DNA of 47,996 bases from a virus. A model generated the notes under the pieces. That model was not told the DNA's origin and searched no databases. It saw only the letters and a program-made list of their open reading frames with translations. Location of the stretch: positions 1-47,996 of the IMG/VR virus record IMGVR_UViG_3300044712_002276; one strand, given 5' to 3'. Positions 2,436 through 47,884 of the stretch are shown piece after piece (position 1 is the first letter of the stretch; the number at the start of each line of letters is the position of its first letter). The translations under genes and the position numbers were made by a program.

Positions 2436-2831
2436 GGGGCTGACTGGTTTTGACAGCGGGTAGAAGAGGTATGTAAGCATGCCGGGCCTTGATCGCACAG
2501 CCCGTAAAACTCGGCGTTCACATTTCAATTGGCGAAAATAACTACGCTCTTGCTGCGTAACCGAACTAAGTAGGTTATACTTTATTCCGGTATTAGATAC
2601 TGGAACGAGACATCGCCCGGGTGCTACTTCCCTGAAGCGGCCCGATCAGGCGGTGCAAATAAATCGGGGATAGCAGAAGTGGTGCTCCGGAACCTCTGCA
2701 AAAATTAAGGAGCTAAGATAAAAGTCGGTGGCCCTGATCCAGCTTTTATTCGAAAATCAAGTCTGGGGATAAACATGTAGAAAGCATATTGCTTCCTCGT
2801 TTGGACGCGGGTTCGATTCCCGCCAGCTCCA
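2436..2831 (+). ncRNA. ssrA: tmRNA (transfer-messenger RNA)
   Basis: The RNA rescues ribosomes stalled on broken messages by acting first as a tRNA and then as a short message. The 5' end GGGGCUGACUGG is the conserved tmRNA start and pairs with CAGCUCC at the 3' end to form the acceptor stem; GGTTCGATTCC is the T-loop. The tag frame reads GENNYALAA followed by TAA near 2530-2560. CCA is not encoded. The 3' end is the prophage attachment site: the last 14 bases belong to the 15-bp att repeat, so the integrated phage supplies or restores the tmRNA end without visible damage. Confidence 0.97.
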
Positions 2832-2832
2832 C
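2818..2832 (+). repeat. attL core within the tmRNA 3' end
   Basis: The 15-bp sequence tcccgccagctccac is identical to 47870-47884. It covers part of the T-arm and the 3' acceptor strand of ssrA, a common target for tyrosine recombinases. Confidence 0.9.
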
Positions 2833-2959: not shown

Positions 2960-4222
2960 ATGAAACGACAGAAATTGTTCAGGTCGCCACGCCTGTTTGA
3001 TCAGGGTGGCGACCTTCAAAAGCCCTGGTGGGTTGAATTAGGATATCGGGATCCGCGCGATGGGAAGATGGTGCGAAAACGGTATCAGGAAGGTTTTGCC
3101 CAGCTCCGAACCAAAAAGGAGCGATACAAGTATGCCGAAGAATTAATAAGTAACCTCACGGCGAAGTTGCTTAAGGGTTGGAATCCGACAGATGATTCAT
3201 CTGTTCAGGTGGTGTATGTTGATGATTTGGAATATCATCAGGCAGCACAGGTTTACGGGCGCAAACGGAAGGCAAACAAAAACGTCAGGTTCTATGCCTC
3301 AGAGTATGTCACCCTTCAGAAAAACATTAAAGCAAAAAAGACTTACGAAAGTTATAGGGGAAAGCTCCGCGAATTTATTTCCTGGCTTGAGCGTGAAAAA
3401 TTGGTCGATAACGATCTGACAACATACAATCATGATCTGATTTTACGCTTTTTCGACTACCTGATTATTGATCGCAAATTGGCAGGCCCCACCGTCGAGA
3501 AATACAAATTAACACTCGACGGGTTCTGGGCATACCTTATTGATCGAAAAGTAATCAATGAAAGTCCGGTTGGAAAAATTGAATTGCCTGAAGCCGGAGA
3601 AGATTTCTCGGCCATTCCTTTTCTCGATGAAGATCTTCAGCAAATACTTCCAGTTATAAGGACCGAAGATCCACAACTGTTTTTAGGTGCGATGCTGCAG
3701 TACTTTTGTTTTGTTCGTCCGGGTGACGAATTACTCAAGCTAAAACTTAACCAGGTTAATTTGTCTGCAAGAACTATCCATATTCCCAAAAGCACAGCAA
3801 AAAAACGAAAGGAACGGACCGTTGACATTCCGGAGCAGATGTATAAAATACTGGTCGATCAAGGGATACAATGTTTTGGAAAAGACATGTACCTGATCAG
3901 TAAATTCGGGCGACCAGGTAAACAGCCAATTGGATATAATACCTTGAGAAACCGCTTTAACAAGTATCGCGAACAGTTAGGATTAACCGATCTTTATAAG
4001 TGGTATTCCTTCAAACATACAGGTGCCGGAAAATTGCTTGAGTCCGGAGCAACTATTATTGAGATCATGAATCAATTGGGTCACACTGATATCGCTTCAA
4101 CGTATCGATATATCCGGAGACATTTTGGAGACCGGTCTGAGCATGTCCGGACTAAGTTTCCTGATCCACCAGGATTCGTTCCTTTAGAAATACCAACTGA
4201 AGAATTTGAATTCTGTATTTAA
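2960..4222 (+). CDS. int: Phage integrase, tyrosine recombinase
   Basis: This 420-residue protein would catalyse recombination between phage attP and the ssrA attB site. An N-terminal arm-binding region (residues about 1-100) is followed by a SAM-like core-binding domain (about 105-205, YESYRGKLREFISWL) and the catalytic domain. Catalytic residues can be read as Arg253 (VRPGDEL), His353 (KHTGAG, with Ala where HxxR usually has Arg), His375 (LGHTD) and nucleophile Tyr382 (STYRYI). The frame is open back to 2903, but the ATG at 2960 was chosen because the preceding 57 bases carry a repeat element also present near the right end. Its place beside attL is typical. Confidence 0.93.
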   Translation: MKRQKLFRSPRLFDQGGDLQKPWWVELGYRDPRDGKMVRKRYQEGFAQLRTKKERYKYAEELISNLTAKLLKGWNPTDDSSVQVVYVDDLEYHQAAQVYGRKRKANKNVRFYASEYVTLQKNIKAKKTYESYRGKLREFISWLEREKLVDNDLTTYNHDLILRFFDYLIIDRKLAGPTVEKYKLTLDGFWAYLIDRKVINESPVGKIELPEAGEDFSAIPFLDEDLQQILPVIRTEDPQLFLGAMLQYFCFVRPGDELLKLKLNQVNLSARTIHIPKSTAKKRKERTVDIPEQMYKILVDQGIQCFGKDMYLISKFGRPGKQPIGYNTLRNRFNKYREQLGLTDLYKWYSFKHTGAGKLLESGATIIEIMNQLGHTDIASTYRYIRRHFGDRSEHVRTKFPDPPGFVPLEIPTEEFEFCI

Positions 4223-16251: not shown

Positions 16252-18993
16252 CTATTTCTTGAATCCTCCCATTCCGGTTTGGTTAAGCAGGTCGGTAACA
16301 TCGTCGAGCTGCTTTTTGAAGGGTACAATGGGGAATTGTACACCGCGTTTCATGAGGAGCCCGGCTGCGATGGTCATGTTGTTGATGGCTGCGATGAGTT
16401 CGGGATCGGTGGTTGCCAGGGATCCTGAACCAAGTTCAGGATGACTGGATGCAGATGTCGAAGCCAAACTATATCCTCCGGACTGCAAACCTCCGGAGCC
16501 CATGACGGCAGGAAGGTTAAGAGTGCTAATTGTACCATTTTCTTGTGCCAGGTTGATAACATCTAAATAAGGTTTAACCGTAGGATTCCTCTTTGCTTTT
16601 GCGTTTGCAACAAATTCGTTGGAATGAACAAAGTCAACGATCTTATCATCTGAGGCCGCAGTATCGGTGTATCCTCCTGCTTTTTTACCTTTTGATTGGG
16701 TGAATGAAGCAATGCTCTGTGCTAATACACTGGCAATGCTTATTCCTGCAGTAATTGTATTAATGGCGACCCATGGCTGACCAAACGTCATCGGGGATGC
16801 TGCAACAGCACTTGCATTTGCAATGGCTGTTTTAAATATAATCTGTCCGATAGCAGCAGCCTGCTGAAAAAGGAAGAGAGCTTTACCTAAGGCTGTTTCT
16901 TTTCCGGCAAGATCAACCAGGGCTCCAAACATTGTGTCTGTAGCACTAAAAATGGCATTTCCGATTTGTTCTCTTTTGCTTAGTTCGTCGAGTTTAATCC
17001 GAATTATTTCATCAGCAAGTTTTTTCTCTGCCTGAGCCATCTTGGTCGCATTGCCCTTCGCATCTTTTAACTCCTTTGCATATTGTGCCCTTGCTATTGC
17101 TTGCTCTGCAGCCCAACGATCCTGATCGTTTGTGGCTTTTGCCTGATCATAGATCGCATGATCCATTTGTTTTTCCAACAGACCGGCACTGTCCAGATCA
17201 TTAATAGTTTTTTGATGAGCCTTCTCTTTTTCTTGAATGGTTTTGTTAATGGCATCATTCAGGGCAATATCCTGTTCTTTAAGGTCTTTCTTATCGTTTA
17301 GCTGTTTTCTTAAGCCAGCCAATTCTTCCTGCCAGCGCTGTTCCTCTTTCGCTTTTTCTTTAGCGATACCATCTTCAAGGTTTTCAATTTTGGCATTGGC
17401 CAGTTCTTTGTTCGCCTGAAGAATCAAGTCTTTTACCGTTTTTTCGGCCTGAACTTGTTTTTCGAGCGATTGCATCTGGGCTTCTTCGTATTCCTTGCTT
17501 CCGACTTTATACACATTTGCTTTATCGGAAAGGAATTTCAGTTCCTGAATAAGTAATTCGGCATTGTATTGATCTTCGGTAGTTTTACCCTCCAAAAATC
17601 TTTTTTTGATTATGCCCATTTCAGAACTGTTCGCAGCTTCCAAAGATTCCAGCCGTTTTTTCCGGGCATCATCAGTAGCTTTTTTGTCTTCTTCAATCAT
17701 TGCTTTTTTATCTGCAGATAATTGTTTCTGAAGCCTGCGTGTTTCGGTCTGGAATTCAGCATCCTTATCGAGTTCTTCAGCTTTTTGCTTTTGAAGCGCC
17801 TGAAATGCTTCCTCATTTTTATCTACAAAATCAGCAAAAGCAGCATCTTTCTTGGATAACGAAGCCAGCTCTTTATCATCAACCGATAGCCATTGTTTGA
17901 GCTGAGCTTCTTTTTGAGCCATGGTCAGTTTACTATTCTGGATCTTTGATGCCAAATTCATTGTTTCAACATCAGTACGCTCACTCAGGAATCCCTTCTC
18001 GATGCTGTTCAACTCAATCTCTTTGTCCATAGCCTGCTGAGCCAATTCCATCTTTTCCCTGGTGGTCTTCATGCTATCCTTTGAAGCATTCTTAAGGGTT
18101 TCTATTTCGACTTTTAATTTAGACATTCTTATTTGGGCAGCAGCTTCCCGATCATCAATGTCATCCATGGACTTTGCATATTCCCATCCGGCTGTGGTAG
18201 CATCCTTAATTGCTGACCCGATTCCGCCAAATGCATCTTTGGCATTCGCTTTTACTCCTTCCCAATCGAAGGTCACCAGGGACCAGAGCATTTTATAATA
18301 ACTCATCGCTCGGTCGATCAGGATATCCATGACATTGCCGATTGCTTTCATGGTTCCTTCCATCTTTACCGCACCGTCATCAGTACTGGTGAAAGCTTTG
18401 TAAAGTAACATCAAGCTTACTACTATGGCCGCTATGGTTGCACCAACCGGATTAGCGACTAAAGCCCAGAGAGCTTTACCCATTCCAAATATGCTTTGAA
18501 TAACAGCACCAACAGGACCAGGTATCGATGTAAGGCTATTCCCGAGTTGGCCCATAAAACCACGGGTTTCGCCAATGCTCGATTTTACCAGGTTCATTTG
18601 TTTCTCGGTGGCCACCAACTCTGAATTTAGTTTTGCCCATCTTGCAGGATCAGCGCCCTGATTCATGCTGTTCAGTTCACGCCTTAAGTTTGTTGCCTGG
18701 CCACGCAATTGCTTCATGGTCATATCAGATAATCCAAGCGTTTTGCGAAGCCCGTCCATCTGACTTTGATTCGCATTGATTGTCTTCGTGTTTTCACGAA
18801 CTTCTTTTGACAAAGCTTTGTATTCGTCTGATTGTTCTTTTCCAATCGCTTTCAGTCCGGCCATTGACTTCCGGAGCATATCGTTCTTATTGCTCAGCTC
18901 TGCCGTTTTCTGAGAAAGATCGACCAGTGATTTCTGTGCTTCATTGGAACCTATTTGTACTTCAGCTCCAATGATGTCCTTTTTTAAGCTCAT
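16252..18993 (-). CDS. Tape-measure protein
   Basis: The 913-residue protein sets tail length and lines the tail tube. The N-terminal 150 residues are helical (KSLVDLSQKTAELSNKNDML), followed by membrane-type segments near 175-205 (ALVANPVGATIAAIVVSLML), a long Lys/Glu/Gln-rich coiled coil (about 260-660) and hydrophobic segments near 720-770. This is the classic composition of tape-measure proteins and it is one of the longest genes in the tail region. Near the C-terminus the coding DNA contains a tcctgaac-caa-gttcagga palindrome typical of intergenic repeats, encoding SSHPELGSGS. Its start overlaps the upstream stop as ATGA. Confidence 0.88.
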   Translation of the reverse strand: MSLKKDIIGAEVQIGSNEAQKSLVDLSQKTAELSNKNDMLRKSMAGLKAIGKEQSDEYKALSKEVRENTKTINANQSQMDGLRKTLGLSDMTMKQLRGQATNLRRELNSMNQGADPARWAKLNSELVATEKQMNLVKSSIGETRGFMGQLGNSLTSIPGPVGAVIQSIFGMGKALWALVANPVGATIAAIVVSLMLLYKAFTSTDDGAVKMEGTMKAIGNVMDILIDRAMSYYKMLWSLVTFDWEGVKANAKDAFGGIGSAIKDATTAGWEYAKSMDDIDDREAAAQIRMSKLKVEIETLKNASKDSMKTTREKMELAQQAMDKEIELNSIEKGFLSERTDVETMNLASKIQNSKLTMAQKEAQLKQWLSVDDKELASLSKKDAAFADFVDKNEEAFQALQKQKAEELDKDAEFQTETRRLQKQLSADKKAMIEEDKKATDDARKKRLESLEAANSSEMGIIKKRFLEGKTTEDQYNAELLIQELKFLSDKANVYKVGSKEYEEAQMQSLEKQVQAEKTVKDLILQANKELANAKIENLEDGIAKEKAKEEQRWQEELAGLRKQLNDKKDLKEQDIALNDAINKTIQEKEKAHQKTINDLDSAGLLEKQMDHAIYDQAKATNDQDRWAAEQAIARAQYAKELKDAKGNATKMAQAEKKLADEIIRIKLDELSKREQIGNAIFSATDTMFGALVDLAGKETALGKALFLFQQAAAIGQIIFKTAIANASAVAASPMTFGQPWVAINTITAGISIASVLAQSIASFTQSKGKKAGGYTDTAASDDKIVDFVHSNEFVANAKAKRNPTVKPYLDVINLAQENGTISTLNLPAVMGSGGLQSGGYSLASTSASSHPELGSGSLATTDPELIAAINNMTIAAGLLMKRGVQFPIVPFKKQLDDVTDLLNQTGMGGFKK
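16423..16441. repeat. TCCTGAAC palindrome inside the tape-measure frame
   Basis: tcctgaac and gttcagga are exact reverse complements separated by three bases. The same motif is a familiar intergenic repeat in many bacteria; here it is read in frame. Confidence 0.75.
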
Positions 18994-27711: not shown

Positions 27712-28010
27712 ATTCCAAATAATTGTTTTTTGATCGTGCTTATTTTGGTTCGTTCCTGTCGGTTATTTAGTTCTATAATGGAAAGTATATCTCCTTTTTC
27801 CGACTGTTTTGCCAATTCAGCATCAATGTTGTAGTCGCCGATGGCCACGCCTTGGTCATAGAACTGCCGGATCTGGTTTTCTTCATCCTGAAACTCTACC
27901 AGAAACCGTTGAGCATCTTCGCCAAATAGTCCAAGCATCTTGCAGATTCGTTCCGGAGAGTATTTTAATGCTCCGTAATTTCTAATTTTTATCAGGCTGC
28001 TTTGGTCCAT
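27708..28010 (-). CDS. Small helical protein, alternative terminase small-subunit candidate
   Basis: A 100-residue protein with an N-terminal HTH-like pattern (KYSPERICKMLGLFGEDAQRF) followed by helices. It overlaps both neighbours: start inside the end of the methyltransferase gene and stop over the next start. The HTH could bind the packaging site. Confidence 0.6.
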   Translation of the reverse strand: MDQSSLIKIRNYGALKYSPERICKMLGLFGEDAQRFLVEFQDEENQIRQFYDQGVAIGDYNIDAELAKQSEKGDILSIIELNNRQERTKISTIKKQLFGI

Positions 28011-29299
28011 GATAGCTGATCTTTAATTTCGTTCCACAAATACTCTTTTCCATCACGAATCAGGCGAATATTATCACAGTTTTGATAATTATAGAAACGC
28101 TTTACGTCCTGATCCACATAAACCGGATCCAGCTCCATCGCGAAGCAGGTACGGTCGGTCTGTTCACAGGCCATTATTGTCGCTCCGGATCCGGAGAAAA
28201 AGTCAGCTACAATATGACCAGGCTTCGAACTGTTTTGTACCAGGTAAGCGATCAGGCCCACTGGCTTCATGGTTGGGTGGATATCGTTCCGGGTTGGCCG
28301 GTCGTATTCAATGACTGTCGATTGTTTCCGGTCAGCATACCAGGTATGCGATCCGGTGGGTTTCCATCCATAAAGTATGGGTTCGTGTTTCCAGTGGTAA
28401 TCCTGACGGCCCATTATGAAGGCTTGCTTCAACCAAATCAGACACTGAGCAAGTTTGAACTGAACATCCAGAAGCGCCTGCCTGAAATTATGCCCTTCAG
28501 TATCGGCATGGAAAATATAATAAGAAGCACCATCGTGCATTACTCGGTACATGTTTCGGTAAAAGTCAAACAGAAACTGGTAGAACTGGCCACCGGTCAT
28601 GTGATCGTTTTTGATTTTAAGCGCATCCTTTGTTTTGCCCTCGTAGTTGACATTGTATGGTGGATCCGTGACAACTAAATTGGCCAGTTTTCCGACCATT
28701 AGCCGCTTAACGTCGCTCCAAATAGTGCTACTGCCACACATCAGGCGATGTTTGCCCAGCAGCCAGATATCACCCTGACGTGAGAAGATATTCGTCTCAT
28801 CCAGTTCCGGAGCTTCATCTTCTTCAATTTCCGTGTAGTCTGTAGTAATCGAGGCGTGTTCTTTCTCAAATCCAAGGGTTTCATCTCCAAAATTCAGATT
28901 GAAACGCTGGAGCGTATCCATCCCGATATCGTAATGAGCGAACAACTGGGTATCTGAATTCTTTTTGGCAAACTCTGAATTGTAAGCAGCGATTTCTTCC
29001 ACCGCTTCGCGTTTGTCTTTCGCCTGGATAGGTTCGTATGGGATGGGTGGAATAATAAATCCATTCTTCCGGAGGATCAGCAAGGCCGCTTTTCGCTGAT
29101 GCGCATCGATGATCCATAACTTTCCGTCCGGATCCTGCCAGGCTTTGAATGCATATTTAAAACCCCGTGTGATGATGAGCATCTGGAGCTTCAGGTTCTT
29201 ATCCGGATCGAAAACTTTAAAATCTTCCTGCAGCTCCTGAAATTGGTCGATTTCTGCAGTGGGTAAATTACCAAGGTTGAATACAGTTAACTCATTCAT
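27992..29299 (-). CDS. ParB-like / N6-adenine DNA methyltransferase fusion
   Basis: The 435-residue protein has an N-terminal ParB/sulfiredoxin-like segment (about 1-150, with WIIDAHQRKAALLIL) and a C-terminal methyltransferase with motif IV DPPY at 212-215 and motif I DFFSGSGAT at 366-374. The order DPPY before FxGxG marks the beta group of amino-methyltransferases. It probably methylates adenine in phage DNA, for protection from host enzymes or to mark DNA for packaging. No partner restriction gene is nearby. It overlaps the next gene at both ends, deep in the packaging region. Confidence 0.88.
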   Translation of the reverse strand: MNELTVFNLGNLPTAEIDQFQELQEDFKVFDPDKNLKLQMLIITRGFKYAFKAWQDPDGKLWIIDAHQRKAALLILRKNGFIIPPIPYEPIQAKDKREAVEEIAAYNSEFAKKNSDTQLFAHYDIGMDTLQRFNLNFGDETLGFEKEHASITTDYTEIEEDEAPELDETNIFSRQGDIWLLGKHRLMCGSSTIWSDVKRLMVGKLANLVVTDPPYNVNYEGKTKDALKIKNDHMTGGQFYQFLFDFYRNMYRVMHDGASYYIFHADTEGHNFRQALLDVQFKLAQCLIWLKQAFIMGRQDYHWKHEPILYGWKPTGSHTWYADRKQSTVIEYDRPTRNDIHPTMKPVGLIAYLVQNSSKPGHIVADFFSGSGATIMACEQTDRTCFAMELDPVYVDQDVKRFYNYQNCDNIRLIRDGKEYLWNEIKDQLSWTKAA

Positions 29300-34098: not shown

Positions 34099-35043
34099 TT
34101 AAAAATGATTAATAAAATGTAAAGCCTTATTCTTGTCACGTTGCTTCCCCAGGTAAGTTTGTCCTAACTGGTATGCTTCGTTCAGCGCTTCTTTAAGAGA
34201 TTTTTTGCCATCGATTAACCCAAGGTCGGTGGCCTGTGCAGTAGCGAAAGTCTCGCCTCTGAAGAGCGGGTGGTCTTCAGGGAGTGATCCAGCCTTGGGT
34301 CGCGCTTTACGCACTGCGGCTTCAAATTGCTGCTGGAGGGGGTTGAGTTCTTCTTCGATGAATTGTTTTGGTTTTCCATTGGTCAAATCATTAAATTTTT
34401 TGTTTTTAAGGTCCGATTTTGTAGCATACTCCTCAATTTTTTTCAATCCCATCTTTTCGTAATAGGGCATGAAATCCAAAAATGAAACCATGGTACCGAT
34501 AGAACCAAGGATTTCGTTCTGAGTAGCAGCATAAATTTTTTTAGAAGGAGAGAAAAGGTAAACGGCAGCGCTTCCACCTACACGTTCAACGATAGTTACC
34601 GATGGCTTGGTGGCCTTCATCAGGGTTTCAAAAGCAATATCCAAATACCAGGTATCGCCTCCGCCCGAATTGACATGTAAAAAGTGAGACATGATCATTG
34701 GGTTGGCTTCTGCCGCTTCAACGTCATCAACAAACTGTTTGGAAGAGAACCACCAGCTCGATTCGCCCATGATCATACCTTTAATACGGTAATAGGCTAC
34801 TGCTTCATTCTCAATGTCAGCATCTGTATAATCTACGGTAAGTGGAATATTACTTTCTTCGGCCAGTTTTTTGCATACTTTTTCAGATAGCTCCTGGTAA
34901 GTTGGCATTTCATCAAAATACCAGCTTTGTTTTTCAGCCAGGAATAAGTCGGCCAAAAACTCCTGCTTTGCTTCTTCGGTGCAAAAGATTCTTCCGGATG
35001 ATAGAAATCGGGATATTTCTGATAAAATTAAAGCCTTCGACAT
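34099..35043 (-). CDS. Prohead protease, peptidase S49 (ClpP/SppA fold)
   Basis: The 314-residue protein should mature the prohead by cutting scaffold or capsid N-termini. The SppA-like domain has HVNSGGGDTW (oxyanion region, about 123-132), nucleophile Ser158 in VGGSAAVYL and Lys209 in YATKSD. The 51-residue distance between Ser and Lys fits the Ser-Lys dyad of S49 peptidases. The C-terminal LGLIDGKKSLKEAL motif is also typical. It lies just before the capsid gene. Confidence 0.85.
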   Translation of the reverse strand: MSKALILSEISRFLSSGRIFCTEEAKQEFLADLFLAEKQSWYFDEMPTYQELSEKVCKKLAEESNIPLTVDYTDADIENEAVAYYRIKGMIMGESSWWFSSKQFVDDVEAAEANPMIMSHFLHVNSGGGDTWYLDIAFETLMKATKPSVTIVERVGGSAAVYLFSPSKKIYAATQNEILGSIGTMVSFLDFMPYYEKMGLKKIEEYATKSDLKNKKFNDLTNGKPKQFIEEELNPLQQQFEAAVRKARPKAGSLPEDHPLFRGETFATAQATDLGLIDGKKSLKEALNEAYQLGQTYLGKQRDKNKALHFINHF

Positions 35044-41959: not shown

Positions 41960-42265
41960 TTAGGTAAATAAGTATCTGTCATTTTCTTCAACTATCGTTG
42001 TGGTGAAAGGGAATCCAGTTACAGGAATTTGCTTAATGACTTCAATCAAGCCGGTTGATCCGGTGAAAACAATATGCTTACGGCTGTCAAATGAAATTTG
42101 CAAACACAAACACTTTCCGGATCCTTTCTCTTTAAATACTTTAGAGTCCTCAATTTTGAAATGATGGACCACAATTTCCCGATTCAGTATTCTTGACATC
42201 TTTATTTTATCACCTTCAAAAGCCTGGCTTTCGACTTTGATGTTGAATTGGCTGAATGTATTCAT
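41960..42265 (-). CDS. Hypothetical 101-residue protein downstream of the reverse transcriptase
   Basis: A beta-rich protein (KCLCLQISFDSRKHIVFTGS) whose start overlaps the reverse transcriptase stop by four bases, so it is probably cotranslated. It is beta rather than helical, so it is not an evident Avd. It could be a nucleic-acid-binding accessory. Confidence 0.65.
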   Translation of the reverse strand: MNTFSQFNIKVESQAFEGDKIKMSRILNREIVVHHFKIEDSKVFKEKGSGKCLCLQISFDSRKHIVFTGSTGLIEVIKQIPVTGFPFTTTIVEENDRYLFT

Positions 42266-43212
42266 GCGAGTAGTTTTTTGAGAAGGTTTTTACTGTCGCA
42301 ATGTGAGGCCCATCCGTTGTATGATGCTATTGATTTTATATTCCGGTTCTTTACCAGCATCCGGGCAAAGTTCTGTTTAATGCTCTTCCGGAGTAGGACA
42401 TGCGTGTGCCGGAACACATAGCCAACAAAGTCGATTCCCCGCACATCAACCGGAAATACCTGGTAGTTTCCTTTGATCGTTAGTTTCAGCCGGTCATTTA
42501 AATAGGTTCTGATTTCGGCAAATAACTGGTGTAAATAAGGCTTGGATCCAGAGAGAATTACAAGGTCATCAGCGTAACGGAAATAATACTTTACACCTTT
42601 TACTTCTTTCATCCAGTGGTCAAAGTAGCTCAGATAGAAATTTGCAAAATACTGGCTTAGGTAATTGCCGATCGGAAGGCCGGCAGTGCTGTCAATAATC
42701 TCATCGAGTAACCACAGCAGATCCTTATCCTTTATTTTTCGGCGGAGCAGCTGCTTGAGTACTGTGTGATCAACATTCGGATAAAACTTCTTTATATCGA
42801 GCTTCAGGCAGTATTGAGTTCCGGGAACATCTTTTAGCGCAAGTTTCACCGCATTGGCAGCAGCATGAATGCCTTTCCCTTTGATACACGAATAAGTATC
42901 AGCCGTAAATGTTGATACAAATATGGGCTCCAGAACGTTCATCACCGCGTGATGGGTGATGCGGTCAGGATAATAAGGCAACCGGAAGATCAGGCGCTCT
43001 TTGGGTTCAAAGATGGTGAACGTGGTATATTCAGACGTTTTATAGGTTTTATCCTTCAGTATTTCATGCAGCTTTTGAATGTTTTCTTCCCGGTTCCGGT
43101 CGTGATTGATTACTCCGGGCTGTTTCGATTTCCCTTTTCGGGCAATAGCATCAGCCAACTGGAGGTTTTCAATGCTGTATATTTTCTCGTATAGATTATT
43201 GATCCGTTTCAT
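42262..43212 (-). CDS. Diversity-generating retroelement reverse transcriptase
   Basis: The 316-residue enzyme copies the template-repeat RNA into cDNA with errors at A, which then replaces the variable repeats in target genes. Catalytic Asp residues lie in CLKLDIKKFYPNVDH (Asp139) and in YADD (213-216). Motif 4 reads LPIGNYLSQYFANFYL (179-194); the SQ in place of the usual QG is the hallmark of DGR enzymes. The short length without maturase or endonuclease domain also fits. It follows the template repeat, the usual order being target, TR, RT. Its start overlaps a short TTG-opened frame over the TR. Confidence 0.93.
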   Translation of the reverse strand: MKRINNLYEKIYSIENLQLADAIARKGKSKQPGVINHDRNREENIQKLHEILKDKTYKTSEYTTFTIFEPKERLIFRLPYYPDRITHHAVMNVLEPIFVSTFTADTYSCIKGKGIHAAANAVKLALKDVPGTQYCLKLDIKKFYPNVDHTVLKQLLRRKIKDKDLLWLLDEIIDSTAGLPIGNYLSQYFANFYLSYFDHWMKEVKGVKYYFRYADDLVILSGSKPYLHQLFAEIRTYLNDRLKLTIKGNYQVFPVDVRGIDFVGYVFRHTHVLLRKSIKQNFARMLVKNRNIKSIASYNGWASHCDSKNLLKKLLA

Positions 43213-43310
43213 GCCTTTGCTTTTATTTGGTCGCTTTCGTTTTGGCTACCAGCGCCCATTGAAAATGATTTGTTTTTTGCACTGTTGGCAAGGTCTACGC
43301 TGCCAGTTTC

Positions 43311-43391
43311 GCATAGGTGAGAGCTGACATTCGTATTCGTGTTATCGTAGTTGTAATTCGAGTTCGAAAAACTGAAACTGGAAGACAGAAC
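43311..43391 (-). repeat. DGR template repeat (TR)
   Basis: This 81-bp sequence is nearly identical to 43507-43587 (VR1) and 43920-43997 (VR2). Read on the minus strand it is rich in AAC/AAT codons, the mark of a template for adenine mutagenesis. It holds 22 adenines on that strand; 19 differ in at least one VR, while none of the other bases differ. It lies between target 1 and the reverse transcriptase. A 67-codon frame spans it (43209-43412) but starts with TTG and is probably not a separate protein. Confidence 0.95.
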
Positions 43392-43425
43392 TAACAGCAA
43401 CGCAGCGTACAACCTTTCTTATATT

Positions 43426-43833
43426 TTACTCCGGATAGAGGAAGTATTCCTGGTATTCGTTCTGGAACTGTTCTGCTATATACTCAGCCTTCTCTGAGGT
43501 ATCAGTGCAAAGGCGAGAGCCGACACCCGTATTCGTGTGAACGAAGTCGAAATCCGAGAACGAAAAACCGAAACCGGAAGACAGAACCCCATACCAGGGA
43601 TAGTATTTCCATTGCGATGATTTACTCCAGTCTGGACGCCATCCGTTGTTTATCGCTCGGAAAATGATCATCAGTTTGTAAGCATTGACGATTGGCTTAC
43701 GGAGATCTTCCGGGATCATCGATACATCGGGCAGCGCTGTTGGATCAATACCTTCTTTTGCACAAGCATCTTCAAAGGTTTTGATTGTTCTAAAATCAAA
43801 ACCTGGTTTTTTTTCTGTTGATTTTTTGGCCAT
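43426..43833 (-). CDS. DGR target protein 1
   Basis: A 135-residue protein without signal peptide. The N-terminal 75 residues are helical (EDACAKEGIDPTALPDVSMI); then comes WRPDWSKSSQWKYYPWYG and the variable region at about residues 83-109, ending in GSRLC. A conserved helical tail follows (EKAEYIAEQFQNEYQEYFLY). The variable part is compatible with the C-type-lectin-like folds that DGRs usually diversify, but the fold was not computed. It is a paralogue of the next gene upstream. Substitutions against the TR are all at template adenines. Ligand unknown. Confidence 0.88.
   Translation of the reverse strand: MAKKSTEKKPGFDFRTIKTFEDACAKEGIDPTALPDVSMIPEDLRKPIVNAYKLMIIFRAINNGWRPDWSKSSQWKYYPWYGVLSSGFGFSFSDFDFVHTNTGVGSRLCTDTSEKAEYIAEQFQNEYQEYFLYPE
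43507..43587 (-). repeat. DGR variable repeat 1 (VR1)
   Basis: Aligned to the TR without gaps over 81 bases, 15 positions differ, and each is an A in the TR on the coding strand. Changes go to G, T and C. The 3' end (ggctctcgcctttgc on the coding strand) is identical to VR2 and may be the initiation-of-homing site. Confidence 0.94.
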
Positions 43834-43838
43834 GATTT

Positions 43839-44306
43839 TTACTTTTTAATGGTTATAAATTGTTCGTACAGATCAATGAATTGTGTGGCTGCATATTTGC
43901 ATTTCTCCTCACTCTCAAAGCAAAGGCGAGAGCCGACAGCCGCAAGCGTGCCATCGCAGTCGTAATGCGAGAGCGAAAAACTGAAACCGGAAGACAGCTT
44001 GAAGTATGGCCAGTATTTGTACTGATTGGAATTATCCCAATCGGGAGTCCAGTCGCCATTAATTGCCTTAACAACCATTTTTAACATGCGGTAAGCCCAT
44101 TCGTCCTGAGACTCCGGATCCTGCATTCTTAAATATCCCGTAGTATGGCCAGTTGCTTCAGCTGCATCTTCGAGTGTTTTAATTTCATCGAAGTTTTTCT
44201 TCTTGAAATAATCACTTCCGAAGGTTGCTGTTAATACTTTCCTGAACCAGTCTGGTGATTCTGGATAGAGTTCTTTTGCTGTTTTTTTGTCAAGTTTTAA
44301 TTCCAT
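43839..44306 (-). CDS. DGR target protein 2
   Basis: A 155-residue paralogue of target 1. It starts MELKLDKKTAKELYPESPDW, has a helical region, then DWTPDWDNSNQYKYWPYF and the variable region at about residues 104-129, again ending in GSRLC, and a helical tail ending in FITIKK. No signal peptide or membrane segment is seen, so it is either cytoplasmic or added to virions. It stands five bases upstream of target 1, in the same operon as the RT. Confidence 0.88.
   Translation of the reverse strand: MELKLDKKTAKELYPESPDWFRKVLTATFGSDYFKKKNFDEIKTLEDAAEATGHTTGYLRMQDPESQDEWAYRMLKMVVKAINGDWTPDWDNSNQYKYWPYFKLSSGFSFSLSHYDCDGTLAAVGSRLCFESEEKCKYAATQFIDLYEQFITIKK
43920..43997 (-). repeat. DGR variable repeat 2 (VR2)
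   Basis: Aligned to the TR without gaps over 78 bases, 16 positions differ, all at template adenines on the coding strand. It differs from VR1 at many of these sites, showing independent rounds of change. Confidence 0.94.
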
Positions 44307-45560: not shown

Positions 45561-45574
45561 CTTCATTCACCGTG

Positions 45575-45647
45575 TAGCGGAGAAGGGACTTGAACCCCCG
45601 ACCTCGGGGTTATGAGCCCCGCGAGCTACCAACTGCTCTACTCCGCA
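45575..45647 (-). tRNA. tRNA-Met (CAT), initiator-like
   Basis: On the minus strand the cloverleaf reads GCGGAG...CTCCGC acceptor, GAGC/GCTC D-stem, CGGGG/CCCCG anticodon stem with loop CTCATAA, and GGGGG/CCCTT T-stem with TTCAAGT. Three initiator marks are seen: a mismatched first pair (T1 with T72), three G-C pairs next to the anticodon (GGG/CCC), and A11-U24 in the D-stem. CCA is not encoded. It lies within the prophage between regulators and early genes, flanked by hairpins. An elongator tRNA is less likely on these marks. Confidence 0.88.
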
Positions 45648-47869: not shown

Positions 47870-47884
47870 TCCCGCCAGCTCCAC
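47870..47884 (+). repeat. attR core
   Basis: tcccgccagctccac matches the tmRNA 3' end at 2818-2832. It marks the right end of the prophage. Confidence 0.9.

Follow-up and report, generated by a model that had tools for sequence, protein, structure and literature searches.

The 47,996-base IMG/VR virus record analysed here at full length (hereafter the window) carries a diversity-generating retroelement (DGR) with two target genes, a template repeat (TR), a reverse transcriptase (RT), and a small accessory gene that we call Acc101. We consider it highly probable (roughly 0.9) that this is a functional-type two-target DGR cassette residing in a tmRNA-integrated Bacteroidota prophage. The DGR machine is of a known kind; its companion protein and folded template RNA are new or barely described. 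Acc101 is the novel part of the cassette and the one most worth following.

All components are encoded on the minus strand in the order TA, TB, TR, RT, and Acc101. The target gene TA (positions 43839 to 44306, 155 aa) carries VR2 (43920 to 43997), and the target gene TB (43426 to 43833, 135 aa) carries VR1 (43507 to 43587). Each VR is in frame, close to the 3ˊ end of its target gene, and ends with the IMH sequence CGCCTTTGC (43920 to 43928 in TA and 43507 to 43515 in TB). The TR (43311 to 43391) contains 22 A nucleotides, and its last nine nucleotides form the IMH* sequence CACCTATGC (43311 to 43319). An ungapped, base-aware repeat scan recovered the 81-bp TR and the two VRs, as had been predicted from the letters of the window.

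The RT gene (42262 to 43212, 316 aa) encodes the GxxxSQ and YADD signatures of DGR enzymes in the form of IGNYLSQ (residue 181) and YADD (residue 213), which agrees with the DGR-type SQ motif noted earlier. Its product matches PHROG 1423 (E = 7e-129). The best PDB match is 8UB7 chain A, a 328-aa entry named ‘Reverse transcriptase’ that we take to be the BPP-1 enzyme (E = 2e-42; next match 5e-18), and group II intron RTs are far behind. The original prediction described a complete DGR at positions 42262 to 44306. The RT, TR, and two VRs are indeed present in this interval, but it omits the conserved 101-aa Acc101 gene (41960 to 42265, minus strand; phrog_19665), whose ATG overlaps the RT stop codon by 4 nt, and Avd was undetected. 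None of the cassette parts (RT, Acc101, TR, the two IMHs, and the reading frames of the two targets) is disrupted in the window.

The prophage assignment made in the original prediction is borne out by an integrase gene adjoining a tmRNA gene and by a 15-bp repeat at both ends. Specifically, the tmRNA gene (2436 to 2832, plus strand) serves as the integration site and includes the attL-like sequence TCCCGCCAGCTCCAC at 2818 to 2832. It is followed by a gene for a 439-aa tyrosine-family phage integrase (2903 to 4222, plus strand; PF00589, E = 2e-16). The tmRNA 3ˊ end recurs a single time as an attR-like copy with a 15/15 match (47870 to 47884, plus strand), and therefore the prophage extends from about 2818 to 47884. 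The host is presumably a member of Bacteroidota, given that the closest genome loci belong to Prolixibacteraceae. The cassette is located in the early or replication region of the prophage, with regulatory genes on one side and, on the other, a long ORF that has only a weak DUF5906 match. The genes for the head protease (34099 to 35043) and the tape-measure protein (16252 to 18993) are kilobases away, which places the targets outside the tail module. The prophage also includes a tRNA-Met gene (45574 to 45647) and a DNA methyltransferase gene with a weak ParB-like match (27992 to 29299). On the host side, a gene for a PNGase F-like N-glycanase (546 to 2261) adjoins the tmRNA integration site.

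Adenine-specific differences in the window and its relatives

As originally predicted, all differences between the TR and its VRs fall at template A nucleotides (15/15 for VR1 over 81 nt and 16/16 for VR2 over 78 nt). The hypergeometric probability of such placement by chance is 2e-11 for VR1 and 4e-12 for VR2, and it is still 1e-9 and 3e-10, respectively, when the last nine nucleotides are left out. Between the two VRs there are 12 differences, again all (12/12) at template A.

When IMG/VR was scanned with the RT, 494 relatives were obtained, and the best 80 of these were read. TR/VR pairs are present in 74 of the 80 viral loci, with at least two pairs in 51. The six loci that lack a pair are mostly at contig edges, and two (L065 and L069) show none despite ample upstream sequence. 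With a repeat finder that is blind to base identity, we collected 105 TR-VR pairs from 61 related loci. Among these, template A nucleotides are changed at 1521 of 2299 positions (66%), and changes at the other template bases are found at 19/2123 C (0.9%), 15/1498 G (1.0%), and 17/2664 T (0.6%).

Both targets belong to PHROG 11581 (unknown function), and as paralogues with 42% identity over 114 aa they are expected to share a repeat. One alternative is therefore that the TR and the VRs are ordinary diverged duplicates, or that an APOBEC-like or strand-biased process produced the A-only pattern. However, the TR/VR similarity is limited to the repeat itself, template A nucleotides are converted to G, T, and C, and the other template bases are intact over more than 6000 positions. 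Likewise, control scans with the other template bases returned 15 pairs for G and 0 to 1 for C or T, compared to 129 for A. The survey of relatives refutes such origins, whose probability we regard as negligible.

Five sister loci (L047, L050, L051, L052, and L056) encode RTs that are 99.9 to 100% identical, and they differ almost only within VRs, with single differences elsewhere. For example, L050 and L051 have 25 differences in 3.6 kb, of which 13 are in one VR, 11 are in a second, and one is outside the VRs. All 13 in the first VR are at template A, as are 9 of the 11 in the second, leaving two at non-A template positions. A third VR differs between L050 and L056 at 12 sites, and all of these (12/12) are at template A. 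VR changes in these sister genomes are thus almost confined to template A. This comparison is the check on related genomes that was proposed with the original prediction, and it supports recent mutagenic homing in the DGR family of the window.

There is the alternative that the cassette in this prophage is an inactive relic, which diversified its targets formerly and no longer works. The exact prophage is available as a single genome copy whose VRs are static in the record, and in several pairs of identical IMG/VR loci the VRs are also the same, although such pairs might represent one genome that was sampled again. Because every cassette part is intact, and because VRs change at template A nucleotides in sister genomes with nearly identical RTs, we regard a relic as unlikely and favour a cassette of the functional type.

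Some relatives carry a third VR-bearing target (L057 at 310 to 756, L050 at 3678 to 4217, L108, L128, and L132) with A-specific differences. In L057, L101, and L128, one target is located 3 to 4 kb from the TR, and its differences are also A-specific.

The 3ˊ boundary, position classes, and targets

When 69 TR-VR pairs were anchored on the TR 3ˊ end, three classes of positions emerged. The first comprises positions 4 and 8, counted from the 3ˊ end, where the VRs always carry T and G, respectively. The change at position 4 is silent, and so selection on the protein offers no explanation for it. VRs nearly always end with CGCCTTTG(C/T), and TRs never do, which indicates that two of the differences in each VR are fixed IMH/IMH* marks. 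The same is seen in the Arg-Leu codons at the VR end, which are CGC in 148 and CTT in 149 of 153 VRs, and no TR ends in this manner. Where sister loci carry a variant TR end (CACCTCTGC, CACCGATGC, or CGAGTTTGT), the VRs still end with CGCCTTTG, which from these TR ends involves some non-A differences. The VR IMH is therefore unlike the TR IMH*, and the last nine nucleotides are an IMH/IMH* pair that is outside mutagenesis. In all anchored pairs, the TR and VR have the same bases at wobble positions 10 and 13, which puts the limit of transfer at about 9 nt, such that transfer reaches approximately nucleotide 10.

The second class is formed by positions 15, 63, and 69, which nearly always change from A to G (Ser to Gly). 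These near-fixed changes are best read as the result of selection; VR2 of the window retains A at position 63. Together, the fixed and near-fixed sites delimit a third class, a free block at about positions 20 to 54, where G, T, and C are all found, with about 20 to 89% changed. The original interpretation of the differences in the window as traces of past mutagenic homing is supported by the relatives, except that in each VR the differences at positions 4 and 8 are fixed IMH/IMH* marks. After removal of fixed and near-fixed sites, free mutagenesis accounts for 10 of the 15 differences in VR1 and 12 of the 16 in VR2.

The TR itself retains A at positions 15, 63, and 69 (window positions 43325, 43373, and 43379), where nearly all VRs have G. 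Many homing products should consequently lose a conserved residue. A search downstream of the VRs for a DNA hairpin like that of BPP-1 revealed no excess over shuffled sequences.

For the targets, a Pfam search gave no consistent match among 86 members, comparison with the PDB gave no match by sequence or fold and no CLec among the matches, and a tblastn search of ‘phages’ with TA gave no match. The AlphaFold model of the target shows helices together with a variable hairpin; its pLDDT of 84 falls to 63 to 75 in the VR hairpin. Owing to this low confidence in the VR part, a degenerate C-lectin is possible, and Roux et al. anticipate new C-lectin variants in such targets (PMC8144416). Most phage targets of the viral clades in that study are tail proteins (PMC8144416). 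We infer that TA and TB are diversified binders that are not visibly part of the tail.

Template RNA and the accessory protein Acc101

An alignment of 62 upstream regions supports the formation of a structured template RNA around the TR. An 11-bp stem, P1, formed by positions 43403 to 43414 (5ˊ arm) and 43292 to 43302 (3ˊ arm) on the minus strand, closes the TR. It is followed by a 3ˊ spacer (43216 to 43295, minus strand) that contains hairpin P2 and stem P3. In P1, 7 of the 11 pairs exhibit two-sided changes and 99.1% of cells are paired among the 62 sequences. For P1, P2, and P3 combined, 97.7% of cells pair, with two-sided changes in 15 of 22 pairs. This degree of covariation was reached in 0 of 500 shuffles, and pairing drops to 33 to 48% in slid controls. 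The spacer resembles the Rfam family RT-17 (RF03020), whose hairpins are located directly upstream of RT genes. The match in the window (30.2 bits, E = 5e-4) is below the gathering score of 40.4, and the relative L045 passes this score. Unlike the structure described here, the RT-17 model begins after P1 and thus excludes the stem that closes the TR.

Acc101 is located at the RT stop codon in 77 of the 80 related viral loci, with no copy detected in the other three. Other neighbours of the cassette in the window are common to only 0 to 6 of the 80 loci. Searching 84,980 species genomes with Acc101 alone produced 55 loci, of which 48 have an RT directly upstream and three are cut by contig ends. 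Cultured relatives that share the layout of the window include Pedobacter arcticus, Flavobacterium sp., and Emticicia sp. In two more of the 55 loci (L126 and L133), the RT is one ORF away, L113 combines Acc101 with TR/VR repeats and a tail-like target, and L137 appears degenerate. The RT is adjacent in 68 of 69 newly fetched viral loci, and the remaining one is cut off. Moreover, the Prolixibacteraceae genome that contains L083 has a second Acc101 copy (36% identical) in a different DGR (L234, 5403 to 7939). This second DGR has an RT 47% identical to that of the window, a 431-aa tail-type target, and a 115-nt TR with differences 19/19 at A, and a 203-aa ORF separates its RT and Acc101. Homologues also follow the RT in the archaeal viruses ANMV-1 and vir525. 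Acc101 is thus found almost only in DGR surroundings.

Avd is usual in DGRs, although it is not universal. Searches with PF05635 and PF22296 found no Avd in the window and 15 relatives (16 viral records), and PF22296 detects the BPP-1 control. Among 20 genomes, Avd-like hits are present but never near Acc101. The bbp4 gene of BPP-1, which also overlaps the RT stop codon, was considered as a homologue of Acc101 and was rejected because the two share no similarity.

The structural model of Acc101 (pLDDT 91) has the strand order b-b-b-a-b-b, and there is no confident PDB match by sequence or fold (best E = 0.2). The fold order suggests nucleic-acid binding by an OB-like domain, where the OB reading derives from strand order only. 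On the basis of its linkage to DGRs and this predicted fold, Acc101 most likely does the job of Avd as a partner of the RT, RNA, or cDNA. Conceivably, it might instead be a host-takeover or replication gene that remains next to the DGR fortuitously or through operon inertia, given that the cassette lies in an early or replication region, that OB-like folds are common in phage ssDNA-binding proteins, and that Foldseek gives weak viral matches. However, Acc101 is constant while the flanking phage genes vary between loci, and it accompanies DGRs that differ in target type, TR length, and RT, including those of archaeal viruses. No clear stand-alone copy was seen among the 55 genome loci. We therefore consider such a gene quite improbable and favour a cofactor of the DGR.

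The best viral structural matches of Acc101 are RT proteins, including the RT of the crAss-like phage cr7_1. The matched part is likely the C-terminal extension of about 90 residues in this RT (TMq 0.58, rmsd 1.5 Å; weak profile similarity). Pairwise hhalign between Acc101 and the crAss RT extension gives E = 0.0065 over 70 columns, and HMM scores are insignificant. A fusion of Acc101 to the RT in crAss-like phages is accordingly a lead that structure supports and sequence supports weakly. Extensions of about 90 residues with an apparently Acc101-like strand order are seen in crAss-like DGR RTs (L208, 4916 to 5236; L209, 4940 to 5239; L220, 2470 to 2793), and cr7_1 requires that TAG is read as Gln. 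In tail-target DGR phages (L113, L126, L133, L234, and the crAss-like L208/L209/L218), the RT is followed by an ORF of about 110 to 200 aa that overlaps its 3ˊ end, and this is perhaps a structural or chaperone gene.

According to PMC10053308, one further Pfam-less DGR accessory was proposed in earlier work (its reference 12, presumably Wu et al. 2018 in NAR), and Acc101 may be that protein.

Known systems and a proposed mechanism

Most of what is known in detail about how DGRs work comes from Bordetella phage BPP-1. In its arrangement (mtd, avd, TR, brt), Avd sits between mtd and the TR and an Acc101 homologue is lacking, whereas the cassette of the window has Acc101 and no detected Avd. The BPP-1 target is a tail protein, in contrast to the two small early-region targets with a 9-nt IMH described here. 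In BPP-1, Avd is essential to retrohoming (PMC10053308). Like the window, the gut phage DGRs nd4 and nd12 (tentaclins, PMC10743442) use one TR to serve two VRs. Their targets are mutually unlike receptor-binding proteins with C-lectin domains rather than two paralogous small proteins, and their cassettes have avd. The DGRs of crAss-like phages (LMMB, cr7_1, and cr55_1) include RTs that are among the closest in named phages (50 to 60%), but they diversify a tail or collar protein. A separate Acc101 was not found in LMMB or cr55_1, and a scan with the LMMB RT gave no confirmed relatives. The window resembles ANMV-1 (PMC4372165) in its accessory gene, as in that virus the Acc101 homologue AJP62065.1 (annotated as hypothetical) comes directly after the RT, although this virus has a single Mtd-like target rather than two. 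An ORF of ANMV-1 was labelled Avd by the authors (PMC4372165), and our PF22296 search of that record found no Avd.

We infer the biochemical steps of homing as follows. The TR would be transcribed as a structured RNA in which P1 closes the TR and the RT-17-like 3ˊ spacer comes after it. The RT would copy the TR RNA with misincorporation opposite A, probably with Acc101 in the place of Avd as a partner of the RT, RNA, or cDNA. The cDNA would then replace the homologous part of either VR up to the 9-nt IMH CGCCTTTGC. Because the TR lacks an IMH, it would be protected from replacement.

More tentatively, and with the odds somewhat against it, this cassette might represent a large DGR clade of Bacteroidota and archaeal viruses that is Avd-free, relies on an OB-like Acc101 cofactor (fused to the RT in some crAss-like phages), uses a stem-closed TR RNA, and diversifies small targets that are neither tail proteins nor recognisable C-lectins. 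A family in which Avd is undetected, and which instead has an unvarying partner and a covarying RNA stem, would reveal the general parts of DGRs and provide a compact second DGR model. Diversified targets beyond the tail module would, in addition, prompt one to ask which proteins other than its receptor binder a temperate phage varies.
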